NCBI GenBank assembly: GCA_016219275.1
Contig: JACRBM010000042.1
Location: forward strand, 1 to 64,000
Source: Chloroflexota bacterium
GTDB taxonomy: Bacteria > Chloroflexota > Anaerolineae > UBA4142
Direction of reading: 5' to 3'
DNA: 64,000 bases
Shown here piece after piece: positions 4,257-60,198 of the stretch (within the stretch, counting starts at the first letter, position 1; each line of letters starts with the position of its first letter). Position numbers and translations under genes: made by a program. The notes beneath the pieces are model-generated. The model was not told the origin of the DNA. It saw only the letters and a program-made list of their open reading frames with translations, and searched no databases.

Positions 4257-4287
4257 GAAACCAGGTTTCTCCGAGAAACCTGGTTTC
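4257..4287. repeat. palindromic hairpin repeat family A, copy 1
   Basis: GAAACCAGGTTTCT and its complement form a 14-bp stem with a CCG loop, between rhaD and rhaB. Other copies: 5162, 10768, 27495, 31493, 58297 and 60166. Confidence 0.9.
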
Positions 4288-17809: not shown

Positions 17810-17935
17810 CATATTTGTATTTATGTTTACTAAATCAACTAACAATGTGGGCAAGTCGTTCGAGCCAAAACGACGATAGGCAGTACCGAGGTACTATTGT
17901 TTCAACGGCTCAAATCGGATACGCTCATCGTGAGC

Positions 17936-17960
17936 GGTATTCTGGTCTGACCAGAATACC
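17936..17960 (+). promoter_or_regulatory. perfect FadR/GntR-type operator before the E1 fusion gene
   Basis: Half-sites GGTATTCTGGT and ACCAGAATACC are exact complements separated by CTG. The core TGGTCTGACCA matches the TGGTNNNACCA pattern of FadR-subfamily GntR regulators. It ends 16 bases before the ATG of a protein whose own N-terminus is a FadR-type DNA-binding domain, so autoregulation is likely. A smaller palindrome, AGTACC-GA-GGTACT, lies at 17882-17895. I see no convincing -10/-35 pair here. Confidence 0.85.
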
Positions 17961-17976
17961 ACAATACTGGAGTCGC

Positions 17977-19644
17977 ATGAAAATCCGCCCCGTCTCGTCC
18001 AACACACTCACGCATTCCGTCGTCGAACGTTTGCTCGGCTTGATCAGCGATGGCACCGTCAAACCCGGCGACAAGATGCCGTCGGAACGCACGCTGATGA
18101 AAAAGCTGGGTGTCTCGCGTTCGACGATTCGCGAAGCGTTGCAAGCGTTGTCGGCGAGCCATATCGTCGAGATTCGCCCCGGCGTCGGTACCTTCGTCCA
18201 CGCGCACGCCCGCGATTTGATTCCGCGCGCGCTCGCCAAAAATCGCGTGCCGAAAGACGCGCGCCCGACGAAAACAATTCTGCCGGCGGGCAATGGCAAC
18301 GGACGCGATCATCTTCTCGGCATCACGCCGATTCCTCCCGCGCCGGAAAAACCGATTCACATTCCGAATCTCAAAAAAGATCGGCTCGGCACATTCGATT
18401 TTATTTCGTGGTGGGAACGCGATAAAGTTCAAGCCGCGCGCGTCATGGTGATTGGCGCGGGCGCGCTCGGCAATGAAGTCTTGAAAAATCTCGCGCTGAT
18501 GGGCGTCGGCAATTTATTCGTCGTGGATTTCGACACGATTGAAGCCGCGAATCTTTCGCGCTCGGTTTTGTTTCGCGCGGAGGATAATGGCAAACCCAAA
18601 GCCGAAGTCGCGGCGCGGCGCGTGAAGGAACTCAATCCCGACGTTCACGTGCAATATTTTCAAGGCGATGTGAATACGGCGCTCGGGCTGGGCGTCTTTC
18701 GCCGGATGGACGCGATCATCGGTTGTCTCGATAACCGCGAAGCGCGGCTCTCGATCAATCGGTTCGCGTATCGGCTGAACAAACCCTGGGTGGACGGCGC
18801 GATCCAGGAACTGTTCGGACTCGTGCGCGTGTTCAAGCCGGGCGAAGGCGCGTGCTATGAATGCACGCTCACCGAGCAGGCGCGCCGCGAAATGTCGTTG
18901 CGTTATTCGTGTCCCCTCCTGGCGCGGCAGAATATCTTGCTCGGCAAGGTGCCGACGACGCCGACGATTTCCGCGATTGTCGCGGGCATGCAATCCCAGG
19001 AAGCGCTCAAGTTGATTCACAACATGCCGGTCGAGGCGGGGAAGGTTTTGCACGTCAACGGATTGACGAACGATTTCCACGCGACGGCGTACACGCCGGA
19101 CGAAAATTGCGAGAGCCATTGGGTCTACGGTGACATCCTCGAACTGGATCGCCAAGCGGCGACGACCACGGTCGCCGAGATGCTGCGTCTCGCGCGCGAA
19201 GCGTTGGGCGATGATGCGATTCTCGAACTCGACCAGGAATTTGTGACGCGGCTCGAATGTCATCAATGCGGGACTGTCGCCGAAATTTTCAAGCCGATCT
19301 CGCAAGTCAATTTCAACGACGGCTTGTGCCCGGGTTGCGGCGAGATGCGCGAAGTGCAAATGATTCACACGATTGCCGGCGATGAACCGTTCTTGAATCG
19401 TCCCTTGCTCGCCGTGGGCGTGCCGCCGCTGCATATCGTGCGCGCGCGTAATGAAAACGAATATCGTTTCTTTGAACTCACCGGCGATCTGGCGGATACG
19501 TTGCATTGGTCACACTTTGAGGGCGGCGCGCGATCGGCGCACGCCTCGCGTGTGCGTCTCCATCCGCGTCCGCAAATCAGACTCGGCGATGTGTTGCCGG
19601 ACGAACCGCCGCCGGTCACACGTCCGCGAGTCGTCGTCCACTGA
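17977..19644 (+). CDS. GntR winged-helix domain fused to a ubiquitin-activating (E1/ThiF-like) enzyme
   Basis: 555 residues from the ATG at 17977. Residues 8-75 are a FadR-subfamily GntR winged helix (MPSERTLMKKLGVSRSTIRE; IRPGVGTFV). After a Pro-rich linker (100-140), residues 148-350 are an E1 adenylation domain with VIGAGALGNEVLKNLALMGV, VVDFDTIEAANLSRSVLF and LDNREARLSINR. ACYECTL at 292-298 followed by RYSCPLL recalls the ECTL and catalytic-Cys region of UBA3/UBA2; Cys312 is the likely thioester cysteine. CxxC pairs at 428/431 and 451/454 form a zinc ribbon. The frame is unbroken with uniform codon use, so the fusion looks real. It should adenylate the Ubl proteins encoded downstream and also bind the operator in front of its own gene. 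Starts upstream (17815) are possible but would include the operator. Confidence 0.9.
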   Translation: MKIRPVSSNTLTHSVVERLLGLISDGTVKPGDKMPSERTLMKKLGVSRSTIREALQALSASHIVEIRPGVGTFVHAHARDLIPRALAKNRVPKDARPTKTILPAGNGNGRDHLLGITPIPPAPEKPIHIPNLKKDRLGTFDFISWWERDKVQAARVMVIGAGALGNEVLKNLALMGVGNLFVVDFDTIEAANLSRSVLFRAEDNGKPKAEVAARRVKELNPDVHVQYFQGDVNTALGLGVFRRMDAIIGCLDNREARLSINRFAYRLNKPWVDGAIQELFGLVRVFKPGEGACYECTLTEQARREMSLRYSCPLLARQNILLGKVPTTPTISAIVAGMQSQEALKLIHNMPVEAGKVLHVNGLTNDFHATAYTPDENCESHWVYGDILELDRQAATTTVAEMLRLAREALGDDAILELDQEFVTRLECHQCGTVAEIFKPISQVNFNDGLCPGCGEMREVQMIHTIAGDEPFLNRPLLAVGVPPLHIVRARNENEYRFFELTGDLADTLHWSHFEGGARSAHASRVRLHPRPQIRLGDVLPDEPPPVTRPRVVVH

Positions 19645-19746: not shown

Positions 19747-20676
19747 ATGCAATTCGATGCCCAAATTATTCCATGGCGCGGTTCATCACCGACGCGCCGC
19801 ACGCAGACAAATCGCATGAGCGCCGAACCACGATCCAAATGGGGTTTTCGCATTCGCTTTGCGCTCGGCGCGATCATCGCGCTCGGCTGGGGTTTCCTGC
19901 TCGGCGTTGCACTCTTGCGCGCGAATGCGACGCTCTCATTCTGGTTTGTCGGCGCAGTCATCCCACTCGCGTTCTTTGGCAGTGCGCTCGCGTGTTTCGC
20001 TTTCCAGCGCGCACTTCCCGAATGGCACACGCTCGTGCGATTACTGGCGGCTCTACTTTTCGCGGCGTTGGCGTTGCCGCTCGGATTAGGGTGGGCGTTG
20101 CGCGAGTGGGAACTCGACGCGAGTTTGTTGCTCGCGGTGACGGGAGAACAACTCTGGGAAATCGAATTTGGCATCGCGATCCTGGGTCTGATCGCCGGGA
20201 CGTGGACGGGCTGGGCGCATCCGCCGCAACGTTGGCTCGCGCGTGGCATCGCGGCTCTGCTCGAGCGTCCGACGCGTTTCTTCTCGGCGCTGTTCGAGTT
20301 TGTCACACGAGTCATCGCCAGTATCGGTCGCGCGATTCTGTGGCTGCCGCTCAAGATCATCGCGCTCGTGCGCGGTTTGATAAACGGGATCGCGTCATTT
20401 TTTAGCGCCATGCGAATTGGGATCGTTCGTTTGATTCCGCGACGAAATCGCGTGCGTTTGCCCAAACCATCGTTATTCCATCGCCACGCCGCGCCTCAAG
20501 CGAATGGCAGTGCACGCATCAAAGCCGTCGTCGAAGAGCGATGTCCGTACTGTCTCGATGTGGTCAAGCGCAATGATCCACGCGGGATTAAAGTGTGCGA
20601 GGTGTGTCACACGCCGCATCACGCGGATTGTTGGGCGATCACCGGCAAATGCCAGGTGCCGCATCTCAATACCTAG
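19747..20676 (+). CDS. membrane-anchored prokaryotic RING-finger protein (predicted E3-like)
   Basis: 309 residues. Four hydrophobic spans lie at about 37-58, 62-85, 94-115 and 139-158, then a basic amphipathic stretch (170-250). A C-terminal zinc domain follows: Cys266-x2-Cys269, Cys284-x2-Cys287, His291/292-x2-Cys295, Cys302 and His306, within ERCPYCLDVV and CEVCHTPHHADCWAI. This spacing and the HHADCW block match prokaryotic RING/treble-clef domains found with E2 enzymes. The finger faces the cytoplasm if both ends are inside. It could recruit the E2 to membrane substrates. The start is uncertain: ATG at 19816 (MSAEPRSKWG) would drop a polar 23-residue leader. Confidence 0.82.
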   Translation: MQFDAQIIPWRGSSPTRRTQTNRMSAEPRSKWGFRIRFALGAIIALGWGFLLGVALLRANATLSFWFVGAVIPLAFFGSALACFAFQRALPEWHTLVRLLAALLFAALALPLGLGWALREWELDASLLLAVTGEQLWEIEFGIAILGLIAGTWTGWAHPPQRWLARGIAALLERPTRFFSALFEFVTRVIASIGRAILWLPLKIIALVRGLINGIASFFSAMRIGIVRLIPRRNRVRLPKPSLFHRHAAPQANGSARIKAVVEERCPYCLDVVKRNDPRGIKVCEVCHTPHHADCWAITGKCQVPHLNT

Positions 20677-20784: not shown

Positions 20785-21648
20785 ATGCCTGATCTCAGTG
20801 TGACTCTCGTTCTACCCGCCGGCGGCGCGCGCACGGCTGAAGTGCCGGACGATGTGCCCGTGCGCGAATTGATGCCGGAACTTATTTCCGTTCTCGAATT
20901 GCCGACGACCGGTCCCGATGGACGACCGATGGGTTATCGGATGGACAGCAAGGCGTTGGGACGCGAATTGCGCGAAGCGGAAACACTGCACGACGCGAAA
21001 ATTCCGCAACATGATCGCTTGATGATTACGGCGGATGTCACTGCCGGCGCGGGCAAGCCCTCCCTGGTTAGCGCGACGCCGCGCTTTCGCCGCCTCAAAG
21101 CCGATCACGACAAGATGCTCGAACTGAAAAAGCAGAGCCAGTTGATTGACTTTGAAGTGGTGGACGCGAAACCTGGGTTTCCGCCGGAAAAATATCTCGT
21201 GACGTTCAAATGCAAAAGCATCGTCGCGGTGGACGCGCAGGGCAATCCGCGTTTCGCCGACAAACACCAGGTCGCGATTTATCTGCACAACGAATATCCG
21301 CATCGCTGGCCCGGCTTGAAATGGCTCACACCGATTTGGCATCCCAACATCAAAGGCGCGAATGGCAGCGTCTGCATTGACGCTGCATGGTGGACTGCCG
21401 CGCGTTCGCTCGACCGGCTCGTGATCATGCTCGGCGAAATGGCGCAATGGAAAAATTTCCACGACGACCCGACCAAGCCGCCGTTTCCCTGGGACGCCGA
21501 AGCCGCCAAGTGGAGTATGAACTATCGTCGCACACACGCAGGTTGTTTTCCGGTGGACACGCGCGAATTGTTGCGCCCGGAACACGCCAAGCCGGCGAAG
21601 AAACCGGTTGCAAAGCTCAAAGCGCGTCCCAAGATCAAACTCAAGTAG
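20785..21648 (+). CDS. ubiquitin-like domain fused to an E2 (UBC) conjugating enzyme
   Basis: 287 residues from the ATG at 20785, 4 bases after TGGAGGA. Residues 1-87 are a YukD/ubiquitin-like beta-grasp domain ending TADVTAG. Residues 105-245 are a UBC fold with the E2 signature HPN (186-188) and SVCID, whose Cys197 is the expected thioester residue. The tail is Lys/Pro-rich. The Ubl part is nearly the same as the free Ubl made by the next gene (about 71 of 87 identical by hand). It should take Ubl from the E1 and pass it on with the RING protein. The fused Ubl could act as a built-in regulator or be released by the JAMM peptidases after TAG. The gap before it (20677-20784) holds a hairpin with arms TTTCCCAGAGTT and AACTCTGGGAAA. 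Confidence 0.9.
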   Translation: MPDLSVTLVLPAGGARTAEVPDDVPVRELMPELISVLELPTTGPDGRPMGYRMDSKALGRELREAETLHDAKIPQHDRLMITADVTAGAGKPSLVSATPRFRRLKADHDKMLELKKQSQLIDFEVVDAKPGFPPEKYLVTFKCKSIVAVDAQGNPRFADKHQVAIYLHNEYPHRWPGLKWLTPIWHPNIKGANGSVCIDAAWWTAARSLDRLVIMLGEMAQWKNFHDDPTKPPFPWDAEAAKWSMNYRRTHAGCFPVDTRELLRPEHAKPAKKPVAKLKARPKIKLK

Positions 21649-21771: not shown

Positions 21772-22038
21772 ATGGCTGATGTACCCGTGACTCTCGTTTT
21801 GCCGGCAGGCGGATCGCGCACGGCAGAAGTGCCGAGCGATGTGCCCGTGCGTGAGTTGATGCCGGAACTCGCGTCGTCACTGCAATTGCCGACGACGGGA
21901 CCGGACGGCAGACCGATGGCATATCGGATGGATAGCAAGGCGCTCGGACGCGAACTGCGCGAAGACGAGACGCTTTCCGCCGCGGGCGTTCCGCAAAATG
22001 ATCGCCTGATGCTGACCGCCGATGTGACCGCGGGCTAA
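21772..22038 (+). CDS. free ubiquitin-like protein (YukD-like beta-grasp) ending in Gly
   Basis: 88 residues, ATG at 21772, with AGGAGG 7 bases upstream. The protein is a stand-alone copy of the Ubl domain fused to the E2: VTLVLPAGG, DVPVRELMPEL, LPTTGPDGRPM, and the end TADVTAG followed directly by the stop. A C-terminal Gly without extension means it needs no processing before adenylation by the E1. It ends in AG rather than the GG of eukaryotic ubiquitin. It is not ThiS or MoaD by sequence. Probably the modifier that is conjugated. Confidence 0.88.
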   Translation: MADVPVTLVLPAGGSRTAEVPSDVPVRELMPELASSLQLPTTGPDGRPMAYRMDSKALGRELREDETLSAAGVPQNDRLMLTADVTAG

Positions 22039-22150: not shown

Positions 22151-23269
22151 ATGACTGAGATTGAAACGTATCGCGCGCTGTCCATCGCGCCGACCCAGGT
22201 AGAGAACGCCGCGCCGGTCTTGTTCGAATTGATCGGCGATTCGACCGAGATTGGTTCGGCGGACGACAACGCGATTGTGCTCGCGAATCCCAACGTCGCG
22301 CTGCATCATCTCGAAGTGCGCCGCGTAGATGGGCGCGATCACTTGCTCATCAACTTGAGCGAACGGCGGCGCGCGCGCGACCTGACCTGGTTCAAATATC
22401 GCCGGGGCGATGCGTATTGGTGTCCGCGTCACGGCAGTATCGCGCGGCTCGATGCGCGGGGTTGGTGCGCGAAATGCCGCACGCGGCGCGGCTCGCTGTG
22501 GTTGATGCGTCCGCTCACACCGGGGGATGCGTTCGACGTGGGACGCGCGTTTCGCGCGACGTATCTCGTGCCAGAACGCGCGAATCAAACCAAACTGCCG
22601 CCGCGCCAAGTTCCCCCGCGCGATGCCTTTGACCGACCGCGTAAAATCGCGATTCCGACGACTGCACCGCAAATCGCGACCCAGGACTTGCCGACCGATG
22701 ATTCGAATCTGTGGCGTTGGCAACCGGCGGAGGCGCCGTTTCCGATCTTTTTGCATCAGCGCGTCAACGTGGATGTCACGCGCCACGCGCGCCAGAATCG
22801 TGATCGCGAAGTGGGCGGCGTGTTGATTGGCGAGGTCTGCCGCGACCAGGATGGGCATCTGTTCGTCGTCGCGTCGCACGCGATCAAAGCCGAATTCGCG
22901 CAAGAATCGCGTGGACAGTTGACCTTTACACACAACACCTGGCTCAAGATTCATCACACGTTGGAAGCGCAATTTCCCGGCAAACTGATTGTCGGTTGGT
23001 ACCATACGCATCCAGGGTGGAGCATTTTTCTATCGGACTGGGATTTATTCATTCATCAAAATTTTTTCAAACAACCCTGGCAAGTCGCGCTCGTCATAGA
23101 CCCATCGCTAGATCGCGCCGGTTTCTTTGTGTGGAAAGATAATCAGGTTTGCAACCCGCAAGCCCCGGTTGAGCCGTTTCGACTCGCCGAAGTAGAATGG
23201 TCGGATATCGCGCGACCACGCGTGCGGATCAAGTTGACCGATCCGCATGGCGCATCCAAGGTCAAATGA
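22151..23269 (+). CDS. FHA-like / zinc-knuckle / JAMM (MPN+) isopeptidase
   Basis: 372 residues. An FHA-like N-terminus (about 25-80: TEIGSADDNAIVLANPNVALHHLEVRR) would bind phosphothreonine partners. A zinc knuckle follows (Cys91, His94, Cys106, Cys109). The C-terminal JAMM domain (about 200-330) has catalytic Glu220 in REVGGVLIGE, His285 and His287 in WYHTHPG, Ser295 and Asp298: a complete zinc metallo-deubiquitinase signature. It would remove or process the Ubl. It lies between the free Ubl and a second JAMM gene, in the same direction with short gaps. No strong ribosome site is visible before the ATG at 22151. Confidence 0.88.
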   Translation: MTEIETYRALSIAPTQVENAAPVLFELIGDSTEIGSADDNAIVLANPNVALHHLEVRRVDGRDHLLINLSERRRARDLTWFKYRRGDAYWCPRHGSIARLDARGWCAKCRTRRGSLWLMRPLTPGDAFDVGRAFRATYLVPERANQTKLPPRQVPPRDAFDRPRKIAIPTTAPQIATQDLPTDDSNLWRWQPAEAPFPIFLHQRVNVDVTRHARQNRDREVGGVLIGEVCRDQDGHLFVVASHAIKAEFAQESRGQLTFTHNTWLKIHHTLEAQFPGKLIVGWYHTHPGWSIFLSDWDLFIHQNFFKQPWQVALVIDPSLDRAGFFVWKDNQVCNPQAPVEPFRLAEVEWSDIARPRVRIKLTDPHGASKVK

Positions 23270-23287: not shown

Positions 23288-23944
23288 ATGACAACCCGAA
23301 TCAAGTTACTCGACTGGGAACCGGCGACCATCTGCGAAGCGCCGATGCCGCTCGACGACGCGTTGCGTTGGAATTCACGATACGAAGCCGCGGTGAACCC
23401 GCGTATCGCAATCTTTTTCGCCCAGTCCGCGTACATCAAGTGCATCGAACACACGCGCAGCGATATGGATAGCGAGGTCGGCGGCGCGCTCATCGGCAAG
23501 GTGTGCATAGACCCGCAAACGGAACAGCAATACATTCTGATTCAGGACGTTATCCCCGCGCTCTACACTCAAGCCGGCGAAACACACGTGACCTTTACGC
23601 ACGAAACGTTGATCCACCTGAACACCGAACTGGAAGACCGCTTTCCCGGCAAACGCATGGTCGGTTGGTACCACACGCATCCGCGTCTCGGCGTGTTCAT
23701 GTCCGGTTACGATACCTGGTTGCATCGGCATTTCTTCCACGATTCGACCCAGGTCGCGCTCGTCGTAGACCCCGAGCGCAACCAAGGCGGCTTTTTCTGT
23801 TGGAGCGCGCAAGGCGACTTGGATCCGGTCAATTACACCGGGTTTTACGAGTGGAGTGATCGGAACGATGACAGCATTATCGGATGGACGAACGTGTCGC
23901 CGGTCGTGAATGGCGCGGAGTTGGATCTGGTGGCGGTGGCGTGA
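23288..23944 (+). CDS. JAMM/Mov34 metallopeptidase, second copy
   Basis: 218 residues, with GAAGGAG upstream and 18 bases after the previous gene. The JAMM domain is complete: Glu63 in SEVGGALIGK, His129 and His131 in WYHTHPR, Ser139 and Asp142. It aligns closely with the JAMM half of its neighbour, including the RFPGK lead-in, so the two arose by duplication. It lacks the FHA and zinc parts. Two active peptidases suggest different tasks, for example Ubl-E2 cleavage and substrate deconjugation, but this is inference. Confidence 0.9.
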   Translation: MTTRIKLLDWEPATICEAPMPLDDALRWNSRYEAAVNPRIAIFFAQSAYIKCIEHTRSDMDSEVGGALIGKVCIDPQTEQQYILIQDVIPALYTQAGETHVTFTHETLIHLNTELEDRFPGKRMVGWYHTHPRLGVFMSGYDTWLHRHFFHDSTQVALVVDPERNQGGFFCWSAQGDLDPVNYTGFYEWSDRNDDSIIGWTNVSPVVNGAELDLVAVA

Positions 23945-23991: not shown

Positions 23992-24852
23992 ATGAGTTTG
24001 CGAATGCGCGTTTATTATTACGCGGTGCTGGGTGCGCTGGGCGCGCTCATCGGTTGGCGCATCAGTGACACGCTTGGATTCATGCGCGGCGTGAATGTAT
24101 ACGTGAACGATCTCGTGCTGGGCGGCATCATCGGCTTGTGCCTGGGTCTCTTGATCGGCGCGAGCGAGGGATTGTTGGCGCGCTCGTGGTATCGCGCGGC
24201 GCGTGCGGGCGCGCTCGCCGGTGGCATTGGATTGCTCGCCGGCGCGATTGGTTTGCCGGTTGGCGAATTCGTCTTCCAAATCACCGGCGGCGAATTGATC
24301 GGACGCGCGCTGGGGTGGGCGTTGTTTGGCGCGCTCATCGGTTTGTCCGAAGGCGTCACGAGTGGAACACAAATGTGGAAAGGCGCGGTCGGCGGCGTGC
24401 TGGGTGGACTCCTCGGCGGCATTGTGCTGTTCGTTTTGCAATCGCTCATCGGCGCGACGGTCATCGGCAAGATGCTGGGACTCGTCTTGCTCGGCGCGGC
24501 AGTCGGCGTGTTCATCGCGTTGATCGTCGTTCTGCTCTCGCGCGCGTGGCTCGAAGTGGTGAGCGGCAAGTTAAAAGGCACCGAGTTCATTCTCGACAAG
24601 TATCTGCACGCGCACGGACCGGCGGCGATCATCGGGAGCAACGATTTCAAAGCGGACATCGCGTTGCCCGATCCTGGGATCGCGCCGCAGCACGCGCGCT
24701 TGAAAGGCGCGGGCGCGTACTTTGTCATCGAAGATATGAGCATTGGCAAAGGTACGTTCGTGGATGGAAAAAAAGTTGAGGCCGCGCGTCTGGCGAACAA
24801 CGCGTCCATCCGGGTCGGCAACACGATGATGATTTATCACGAACGACATTAG
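23992..24852 (+). CDS. polytopic membrane protein with C-terminal FHA domain
   Basis: 286 residues. Residues 1-190 are Gly/Ala-rich hydrophobic spans with glycine-zipper-like patterns (LGGIIGLCLGLLIGA, GGVLGGLLGGIVLF), about six segments. Residues 195-285 form a cytoplasmic FHA domain: IIGSNDFKADIALPDPGI, APQHARL, GKGTFVDGKKV, ASIRVGN. It would be a membrane receptor for threonine-phosphorylated proteins. A ribosome site AAAGGAG precedes the ATG. No kinase is encoded nearby. Same operon as the JAMM genes. Confidence 0.85.
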   Translation: MSLRMRVYYYAVLGALGALIGWRISDTLGFMRGVNVYVNDLVLGGIIGLCLGLLIGASEGLLARSWYRAARAGALAGGIGLLAGAIGLPVGEFVFQITGGELIGRALGWALFGALIGLSEGVTSGTQMWKGAVGGVLGGLLGGIVLFVLQSLIGATVIGKMLGLVLLGAAVGVFIALIVVLLSRAWLEVVSGKLKGTEFILDKYLHAHGPAAIIGSNDFKADIALPDPGIAPQHARLKGAGAYFVIEDMSIGKGTFVDGKKVEAARLANNASIRVGNTMMIYHERH

Positions 24853-24874
24853 CCACACCCTTAAGGGTGTGGCT
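24851..24874 (+). terminator. perfect hairpin overlapping the FHA gene stop
   Basis: AGCCACACCC and GGGTGTGGCT form a 10-bp stem with a TTAA loop, starting inside the stop codon of the FHA gene and ending 9 bases before the next start. There is no T-run, so it may act as an RNA stabiliser or translational boundary and not as a full terminator. Confidence 0.6.
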
Positions 24875-24883
24875 AAAAGGACG

Positions 24884-26086
24884 ATGAAAATGAAAACCTG
24901 GTTTCGATCATTCATCCTCGCGTGCACGATGGCGCTCGTCGCGACGATAAACACATACGCGCAAACGCCGGTCGTCATCAATGTGACCCAAGTGGACACC
25001 TCGCGCTTTCCGCAAGTAGATGTGTACATTTCGGTGACGGACGCGAATGGCAATCCGGTACGAAATGTGCCGGCAAGCGCGCTGCAAGTTCAAGAAAACG
25101 GCAAGACGGTCGCGGCAACGGCGACGACGCGCTCCGGCGACCTGGGTCCAGTGAGTACGATCCTCATCGTAGATCGCAGCGGTAGCATGGCGCGTAGCGG
25201 CAAGATGGACGGTGCGAAGCAAGCTGCGACGACGTTCGTGAATCAAATGCGTTCGGGTGATCGCGCCGCGTTGGTGCAGTTCGACACGGAAATCGAAACT
25301 CTGCAATCATTGACCGACAACAAGAACGCGCTGCTTGCCGCAATTCCAAAACTCGTCCCGCGCGGTAACACGGCGATGTACGACGCGCTCGGTCAAGCGA
25401 GCAGGTTTTTCGAATCGGCGCAGGGACGCAAAGCGGTCATCGTCGTGACGGATGGCATGGACAACGCGAGCAACCTCAGCCGCGATGCGATGTTGAATTC
25501 CGCGAATTCGAGCGGTTATTCGATCTACACGATTGGTCTGGGCGCGCAAGCGGTGGGTACGAATAGTCAGGAAGGCATTGACGAGCCGGTGCTCCAAGAG
25601 ATCGCGCGCGCGTCGTTGGGCGAATACTATTACGCGCCGGACGCGAGTCAACTCGGCACGCTGTATCAGCAAATCGCGTCGCGCATTCAAAACGAGTACA
25701 AGTTGACGTACACCTCGACTGCCGCGCTGCGCGATGGATTGAAACGCGCGATTGTGGTGACCGCGCCGGGCTTGGGCACGACGCGCGCGGATTACAATCC
25801 GGGCGGCGTGATTCCCGAAGTTGAGCCGCAAGGATGGTCGTGGGTGTGGTTTATGCTCGCGTTGATTCTGCTCGTCGCGCTGTTCTTTGCGCCGCAAGGA
25901 GCGCGTTGGGTGTTCGCGCGCGCGACGCCCGCGCCCGCACCAAAGTCGCGAGTGCGATTGACGGAGGGCGCAACGACCCCCGCGCCAAGCTCACCGCGTC
26001 CCTCGCGCATCAAGATCAAGAAGCCGGCAACCGCGGATGCGACGCGGCAAAAGTTGCCGTGGGACGAGGAGCCATCCAAGCATTGA
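24884..26086 (+). CDS. secreted, membrane-anchored von Willebrand factor A (VWA) domain protein
   Basis: About 400 residues. The ATG at 24884 or 24890 opens a signal peptide (FILACTMALVATINTYAQ). A short N-terminal beta domain is followed by a VWA domain (about 85-275) with a complete metal-ion site: DRSGSMARS, Thr in GNTAMYD, and VVTDGMDNAS. Near 320-340 is a membrane span (WFMLALILLVALFF), then a basic Pro-rich cytoplasmic tail. VWA domains bind proteins through Mg2+. It could be the outside partner of the membrane RING/FHA proteins, but only neighbourhood supports that. Confidence 0.85.
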   Translation: MKMKTWFRSFILACTMALVATINTYAQTPVVINVTQVDTSRFPQVDVYISVTDANGNPVRNVPASALQVQENGKTVAATATTRSGDLGPVSTILIVDRSGSMARSGKMDGAKQAATTFVNQMRSGDRAALVQFDTEIETLQSLTDNKNALLAAIPKLVPRGNTAMYDALGQASRFFESAQGRKAVIVVTDGMDNASNLSRDAMLNSANSSGYSIYTIGLGAQAVGTNSQEGIDEPVLQEIARASLGEYYYAPDASQLGTLYQQIASRIQNEYKLTYTSTAALRDGLKRAIVVTAPGLGTTRADYNPGGVIPEVEPQGWSWVWFMLALILLVALFFAPQGARWVFARATPAPAPKSRVRLTEGATTPAPSSPRPSRIKIKKPATADATRQKLPWDEEPSKH

Positions 26087-58296: not shown

Positions 58297-58339
58297 GTAC
58301 TAGAAACCAGGTTTCTTCAAGAAACCTGGTTTCTAGTAC
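58297..58339. repeat. palindromic hairpin repeat family A, copy 6
   Basis: The longest copy: GTACTAGAAACCAGGTTTC has its exact complement after a TTCAA loop, a 19-bp stem, between the HAD and GH3 genes. Confidence 0.9.
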
Positions 58340-60165: not shown

Positions 60166-60198
60166 AGAATCCAGGTTTCTTAAAGAAACCTGGATTCT
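60166..60198. repeat. palindromic hairpin repeat family A, copy 7
   Basis: Perfect 15-bp stem, TAA loop, overlapping the stop codon of the Gfo/Idh gene that ends at 60197. Confidence 0.9.

Follow-up and report, generated by a model that had tools for sequence, protein, structure and literature searches.

Inspection of the window, the whole 64,000-nucleotide stretch of DNA analysed here, revealed a gene whose product joins a FadR-type GntR winged helix to a ThiF/MoeB-like E1 and a C-terminal ubiquitin-fold domain (UFD). This gene, GntR-E1, is followed by genes for a candidate E3, an E2, ubiquitin-like (Ubl) modifiers and predicted deconjugases (Table 1). An earlier note on this DNA had placed the winged helix and the E1 in one open reading frame, and the Pfam scan found both domains there; the coordinates that it gave were all correct. 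The same note had described the two domains as joined without break, which is true in that they share a polypeptide but not in that a low-confidence linker of variable length separates them. The linker comprises about 35 residues in the window protein and 26–43 in relatives, and pLDDT drops below 50 at residues 95–120. No match to the FCD/FadR C-terminal ligand-binding domain was found in the Pfam scan of the fusion, the ThiF/E1 domain standing in its place.

Table 1. Features of the GntR-E1 locus, with positions in the window.
Feature	Position	Strand	Basis
Second conserved palindrome AGTACCGAGGTACT (AGTAC-N4-GTACT), adjoining the −35 region	17882..17895	.	kept in most fusions
Inferred promoter TTGTTT-17-TACGCT, weak in the window	17897..17925	+	placed by aligning nine upstream regions
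Operator, perfect 25-bp palindrome GGTATTCTGGTCTGACCAGAATACC, core TGGTCTGACCA at 17943–17953 (predicted site)	17936..17960	.	letters; conservation in fusions
Whole GntR-E1 fusion gene, stop codon included	17977..19644	+	ORF; Pfam; kept in relatives
FadR-type GntR winged helix, residues 1–88	17977..18240	+	PF00392 E 4.9e-21 at residues 12–73; pLDDT over 90; R38/R48/R52 invariant
Flexible interdomain linker, about residues 91–130	18247..18366	+	low pLDDT at 95–120
E1 (ThiF/MoeB-like) adenylation domain, residues 133–378	18373..19110	+	PF00899 (ThiF) E 1.9e-58 at residues 145–378
E2-recruiting type of ubiquitin-fold domain, residues 384–512, interrupted by a zinc ribbon (C428/C431/C451/C454)	19126..19512	+	AlphaFold model; VIA fold matches
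Membrane/RING protein (Prok-RING_1), candidate E3	19747..20676	+	PF14446 E 8e-7; syntenic
YukD-type Ubl fused to E2 (UBC fold; GSVCIDA catalytic Cys region)	20785..21648	+	PF08817, PF00179; syntenic
Free Ubl modifier, end ...TADVTAG	21772..22038	+	PF08817
FHA-JAB predicted deconjugase, HTHPGWSIFLSDWD motif	22151..23269	+	PF01398 E 1.9e-12
JAB predicted deconjugase, HTHPRLGVFMSGYD motif	23288..23944	+	PF01398 E 8.2e-9
Membrane protein with FHA domain	23992..24852	+	PF00498, PF16697; syntenic
VWA-domain protein, with which the conserved part of the examined cluster ends	24869..26086	+	PF00092 E 8.6e-21; syntenic

The earlier note had named a start codon downstream of the winged helix as the finding that would overturn its proposal. 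Such a start was excluded because relatives at 56–85% identity share both the position of the MKI... start and the winged helix. On codon-level comparison the winged helix is under purifying selection, with a dN/dS of ~0.14–0.21 over residues 1–80 between the window and five relatives and with differences mostly at third positions. Extension of the reading frame upstream to a TTG at 17815 was rejected, as the in-frame stretch is not conserved and stop codons occur 1–69 codons upstream in relatives.

Within the E1 domain, the ATP-site residues G160, G162, G165, D184, D186, N192, R195, K208 and D252 were invariant in 61 sequences, as were C293, C296, C312, C378 and H381. By analogy with ThiF and MoeB, we take C312, which the AlphaFold model places in a low-confidence crossover loop, to be the candidate thioester cysteine, and C293, C296, C378 and H381 to form a probable zinc site. 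Comparison of the AlphaFold model with ThiF/MoeB gave a VIA Z of 29.5. The C-terminal domain folded alone with an AlphaFold pLDDT of 95.2, and its 16 best VIA matches were UFDs of SUMO and NEDD8 E1s (Z 6.8–9.0, with 74–88 residues aligned at 6–13% identity). Foldseek scores for the UFD matches were weak (E 0.075), and a sequence search of the PDB with this domain returned nothing up to E 1, the UFDs being reached by fold comparison only. To our knowledge, the four-cysteine zinc ribbon inside this domain is absent from eukaryotic UFDs. Since UFDs recruit E2 enzymes, the modelled UFD makes it probable that this E1 charges the E2 of its operon. Taken together, the invariant ATP-site, cysteine and zinc residues, the ThiF/MoeB fold and the predicted UFD argue for a working, E2-charging E1.

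The downstream genes are consistent across the family: the RING, Ubl-E2, Ubl, JAB, FHA and VWA set was kept with nearly all fusions on contigs long enough to judge. Both JAB proteins have complete JAMM motifs. In 70 of 72 loci, unfused relatives included, the last three residues of the free Ubl are Thr-Ala-Gly, and this terminal TAG fits what would be expected of a conjugated modifier. In the E2-fused Ubl the same tripeptide runs on into the linker, as if this Ubl could be cleaved by a JAB protein. PADLOC gave weak matches only, to E1-E2, BilD and JAB models; when homologues of BilA-D were sought with it, the E1-BilD match was weak (66 residues, E 3.2e-7) and the Ubl and E2 had no match.

Among relatives, a search recovered the fusion from eight further genomes, in one of which it is cut by a contig end. 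When one genome was scanned for each species, 80 loci were recovered, about 70 of them fused. By their labels the fused loci are all from Chloroflexota, mostly Anaerolineae and mostly metagenome-assembled genomes; the cultured carrier is Pelolinea submarina MO-CFX1 (L123). Among 400 sampled Chloroflexota genomes, 10 had the fusion. In a maximum-likelihood tree the fused E1s lay on one side of a branch with support of 93/90, and nine unfused E1s (L155–L163) formed their sister group (99/98). These unfused E1s are 56–58% identical over the E1 core and have no GntR domain, and the ThiF of a Crinalium plasmid, at 37% identity, likewise has none. The simplest reading would be a single fusion event followed by long retention. 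One apparently unfused exception on the tree, L150, was rejected because a contig end cuts it; L135 and L147 were similarly rejected, together with L150, as unfused or operator-less loci because their contigs end there. No relative was found in viral contigs and no plasmid match covered 80% of the query, and spread by viruses or plasmids was rejected on these grounds. The nine unfused loci contain Ubl, E2 and JAB genes in a different gene order, and gave no RING, FHA or VWA match.

The 25-bp palindrome that the earlier note had reported upstream of the gene is indeed perfect, with 12-bp arms around one central base, and ends exactly 16 bases before the ATG at 17977. A script listing contained only six palindromes with arms of at least 9 bp in the 64-kb window. 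Perfect palindromes of 43, 33 and 31 bp at 58297–58339, 60166–60198 and 4257–4287 share AGAAACCTGG(T/A)TTCT and are probably a dispersed palindromic repeat. In a scan of the whole 6.16-Mb assembly, the operator core TGGTCWGACCA occurred once and no second core site was found elsewhere in the genome, for which reason a regulon extending beyond the operon was rejected. The Pelolinea genome and four other genomes also have a single core site, and some relatives' genomes have 2–6 copies.

We determined how often the site accompanies the fusion by seeking, in the 69 fusions with intact upstream DNA, an exact copy of the core no more than 60 bp from the start. It was present in 56, lying 24–42 bp before the start and most often at 29–30; allowing up to one mismatch raised the count to 63 of 69, and up to two mismatches to 66. 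Three fusions (L090, L092 and L153) had no recognisable site close upstream. The exact site was absent upstream of the nine unfused sister E1s, although this difference between fused and unfused genes is one contrast of two clades and not nine or 78 independent cases. Three unfused E1s did have a two-mismatch match no further than 250 bp away, as expected by chance, and only exact and one-mismatch sites therefore carry weight. Because the operator is kept amid intergenic DNA that is barely alignable among fusions, we consider it a real phylogenetic footprint. Its right outer half (ACC at +10 to +12; ATACC) was near-invariant, in 54–56 of 56, and its left outer half was less conserved; the true site may therefore be something other than a simple palindrome. 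At L101 a second copy of TGGTCTGACCA was seen at 2951–2961, 231 bp before the fusion start and 201 bp upstream of the proximal site.

The closest solved structures to the winged helix are those of FadR-family proteins and PdhR. Escherichia coli FadR contacts DNA through R35, T44, R45, T46, T47, R49 and H65, and binds the sites ATCTGGTACGACCAGAT (fadBA) and CTGGTCCGACC (fadL) (PMC4259882); the core of these sites is also the core of the fusion operator. When we aligned the fusion with FadR on their common ER...R-x-T-x-RE motif, the equivalent residues were, in order, R38, S47, R48, S49, T50, R52 and P68. The three positions corresponding to FadR R35, R45 and R49 (R38, R48 and R52) were arginine in all 58 fusions compared, and in each of these residue 50 was threonine or serine. 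Because both the residues and the site match those of FadR, this comparison supports direct recognition of the operator by the fusion's own winged helix.

In the window, the promoter was poorly defined: a consensus scan gave no call, and its −10 element is poor. Relatives have sigma-70-like promoters, such as TTGACA-17-TATATT in L038 and TTGGCA-17-TACAAT in L043, which end ~8–12 bp before the operator and thereby place it over or just after the expected +1. This position, together with the precedent of BirA and FadR, is why we infer repression. In many relatives the right arm of the second palindrome reads GTCCT instead of GTACT, and the exact window sequence AGTACNNNNGTACTATTG, which includes CTATTG, occurs once in the genome. 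AGTAC-N4-GTACT resembles a LexA box; however, the lexA promoters of this and 12 other genomes carry GAAC-N4-GTTC, and control by LexA through this palindrome was rejected. Clusters of 8-bp-spaced repeats resembling CACTATTG or CACTATCG were seen in genome G000 (C28:34171–34248, C40:206123–206188, C41:3548–3573 and C26:33025–33103) and look like short tandem arrays.

The co-occurring domain and site make autorepression by GntR-E1 likely. In our model the FadR-type winged helix would bind the TGGTCWGACCA palindrome at the transcription start of its own operon, and bound GntR-E1 would repress this ubiquitin-like conjugation operon. ThiF and MoeB are homodimers, and we therefore propose that dimerisation, which would pair two winged helices, occurs most simply via the E1 domain. 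On balance we favour a protein that is both an E1 and the autorepressor of its own operon, with an effector logic like that of BirA, in which scarcity of acceptor leads the adenylate-bound form to dimerise and repress (PMC6391492). The E1 domain would most likely double as the effector domain, as in BirA. An idle E1, either free or loaded with Ubl adenylate or thioester without an acceptor, would favour operator binding. Conversely, an E1 engaged with E2 on its UFD and with Ubl would favour release, such that expression would track conjugation demand. Gating of DNA binding by the state of the E1 (ATP, Ubl adenylate or thioester) is plausible, if speculative, by analogy with BirA. Because the linker is flexible, the state of the E1 need not reach the winged helix, and that GntR-E1 senses the conjugation state at all is close to an even call. 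That it is a conjugation-state-sensing transcription factor, which would tie expression of the E2, E3, modifier and deconjugase genes of its operon directly to conjugation flux, is a suggestion that we make tentatively and with rather less than even confidence.

The main rival to this model is a simple concentration-dependent autorepressor that exerts negative feedback on operon dose, with the E1 serving only to dimerise and the conjugation state going unsensed. Such a repressor would explain the same domain and operator evidence, and the long flexible linker provides no obvious allosteric path for state sensing. However, a separate small GntR protein would serve equally well for this purpose, and the fact that one clade has strictly kept the fusion suggests, as weak evidence, that coupling is of benefit; we regard the plain autorepressor as somewhat unlikely but a serious contender. 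A different division of labour, in which a second regulator acting at AGTAC-N4-GTACT is the main, stress-inducible switch and the GntR-E1 site provides fine-tuning, is compatible with our model. It would account for the retention of the second palindrome in most fusions, and Bub operons elsewhere are under the DNA-damage-responsive regulators CapW, CapH+CapP and CapK+CapS (PMC13373217). This palindrome is nevertheless unlike the boxes that these genomes have at their lexA promoters, and we consider such an arrangement unlikely.

It was also conceivable that some other FadR-type regulator binds the operator and that the E1's GntR domain is vestigial or acts with another partner, given the multiple core sites in some relatives' genomes and the recognition of similar cores by other FadR-type regulators. 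What makes this very improbable is that site and domain co-occur and are absent together, that all three base-contacting arginines are invariant, and that the window's own genome has a single core site. Finally, the winged helix might serve not in transcription control but as a tether that holds the E1 on DNA, so that DNA-bound targets close to chromosomal sites are conjugated. In favour of this, homology marks the domain as DNA-binding and the E1 has the look of an active enzyme, but the sole core site in the 6.16-Mb genome is at the gene's own promoter, in the expected +1 region that is the usual place for a repressor, and of all these explanations we give tethering the least credence.

Several known systems resemble GntR-E1 in part. 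BirA also combines a winged helix with an adenylate-forming ligase and acts at a palindrome in the promoter of its own pathway's operon, where it represses (PMC6391492). In contrast to BirA, the winged helix of GntR-E1 is of another family and its partner is a ThiF/E1 of a Ubl pathway rather than a biotin protein ligase domain. MocR, PdxR and GabR similarly have a GntR winged helix, a flexible linker and an enzyme fold that serves as their effector domain (PMC6677901, PMC5734734). Their enzyme fold is a PLP aminotransferase, whereas in GntR-E1 the partner is an E1 whose active-site residues are retained; the Pfam scan of GntR-E1 contained no PLP aminotransferase-like domain. FadR/PdhR-type repressors share the winged helix, the base-contacting residues and the TGGTNNNACCA operator core predicted for GntR-E1, but in the latter an E1 replaces the FCD/FadR C-terminal effector domain. 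Bub and Bil operons, like this cluster, group E1, E2, Ubl and JAB genes. The Bub operon regulators are separate, DNA-damage-responsive proteins (CapW, CapH+CapP and CapK+CapS; PMC13373217), whereas the predicted regulator of this cluster is built into the E1, and the cluster also has RING, FHA and VWA genes. The unfused sister clade has the same E1 core and a Ubl ending in VTAG, and differs from the fusions in lacking the GntR domain and the exact operator and in its gene set.

Set against these systems, what the earlier note had proposed is supported in part: comparison supports a single polypeptide uniting a FadR-type DNA-binding domain with what looks like an active E1, and a matching operator at the promoter of the same gene. 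The note had added that such a fusion was not known from earlier descriptions. This agrees with the searchable literature, from which key papers on ubiquitin-like systems were beyond reach; the literature that we searched contained no description of a GntR-ThiF fusion in this sense, although a prior mention is possible, and a 2006 survey of prokaryotic Ubl systems mentions neither GntR nor helix-turn-helix domains. As read from sequence comparison, the novelty would be an autogenous enzyme-repressor built on an E1, enzyme-repressors as a kind being already known from BirA.

Knowledge of how bacteria control ubiquitin-like conjugation operons is just beginning, and the regulators described are separate, DNA-damage-responsive proteins (PMC13373217). 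Because the first enzyme of the cascade has a DNA-binding domain and a dedicated site, the one-protein feedback loop proposed here is directly testable in vitro. With GntR-E1, the small group of enzyme-repressors to which BirA belongs would gain an E1, and the GntR-E1 operator would be a ready reporter of the conjugation state.
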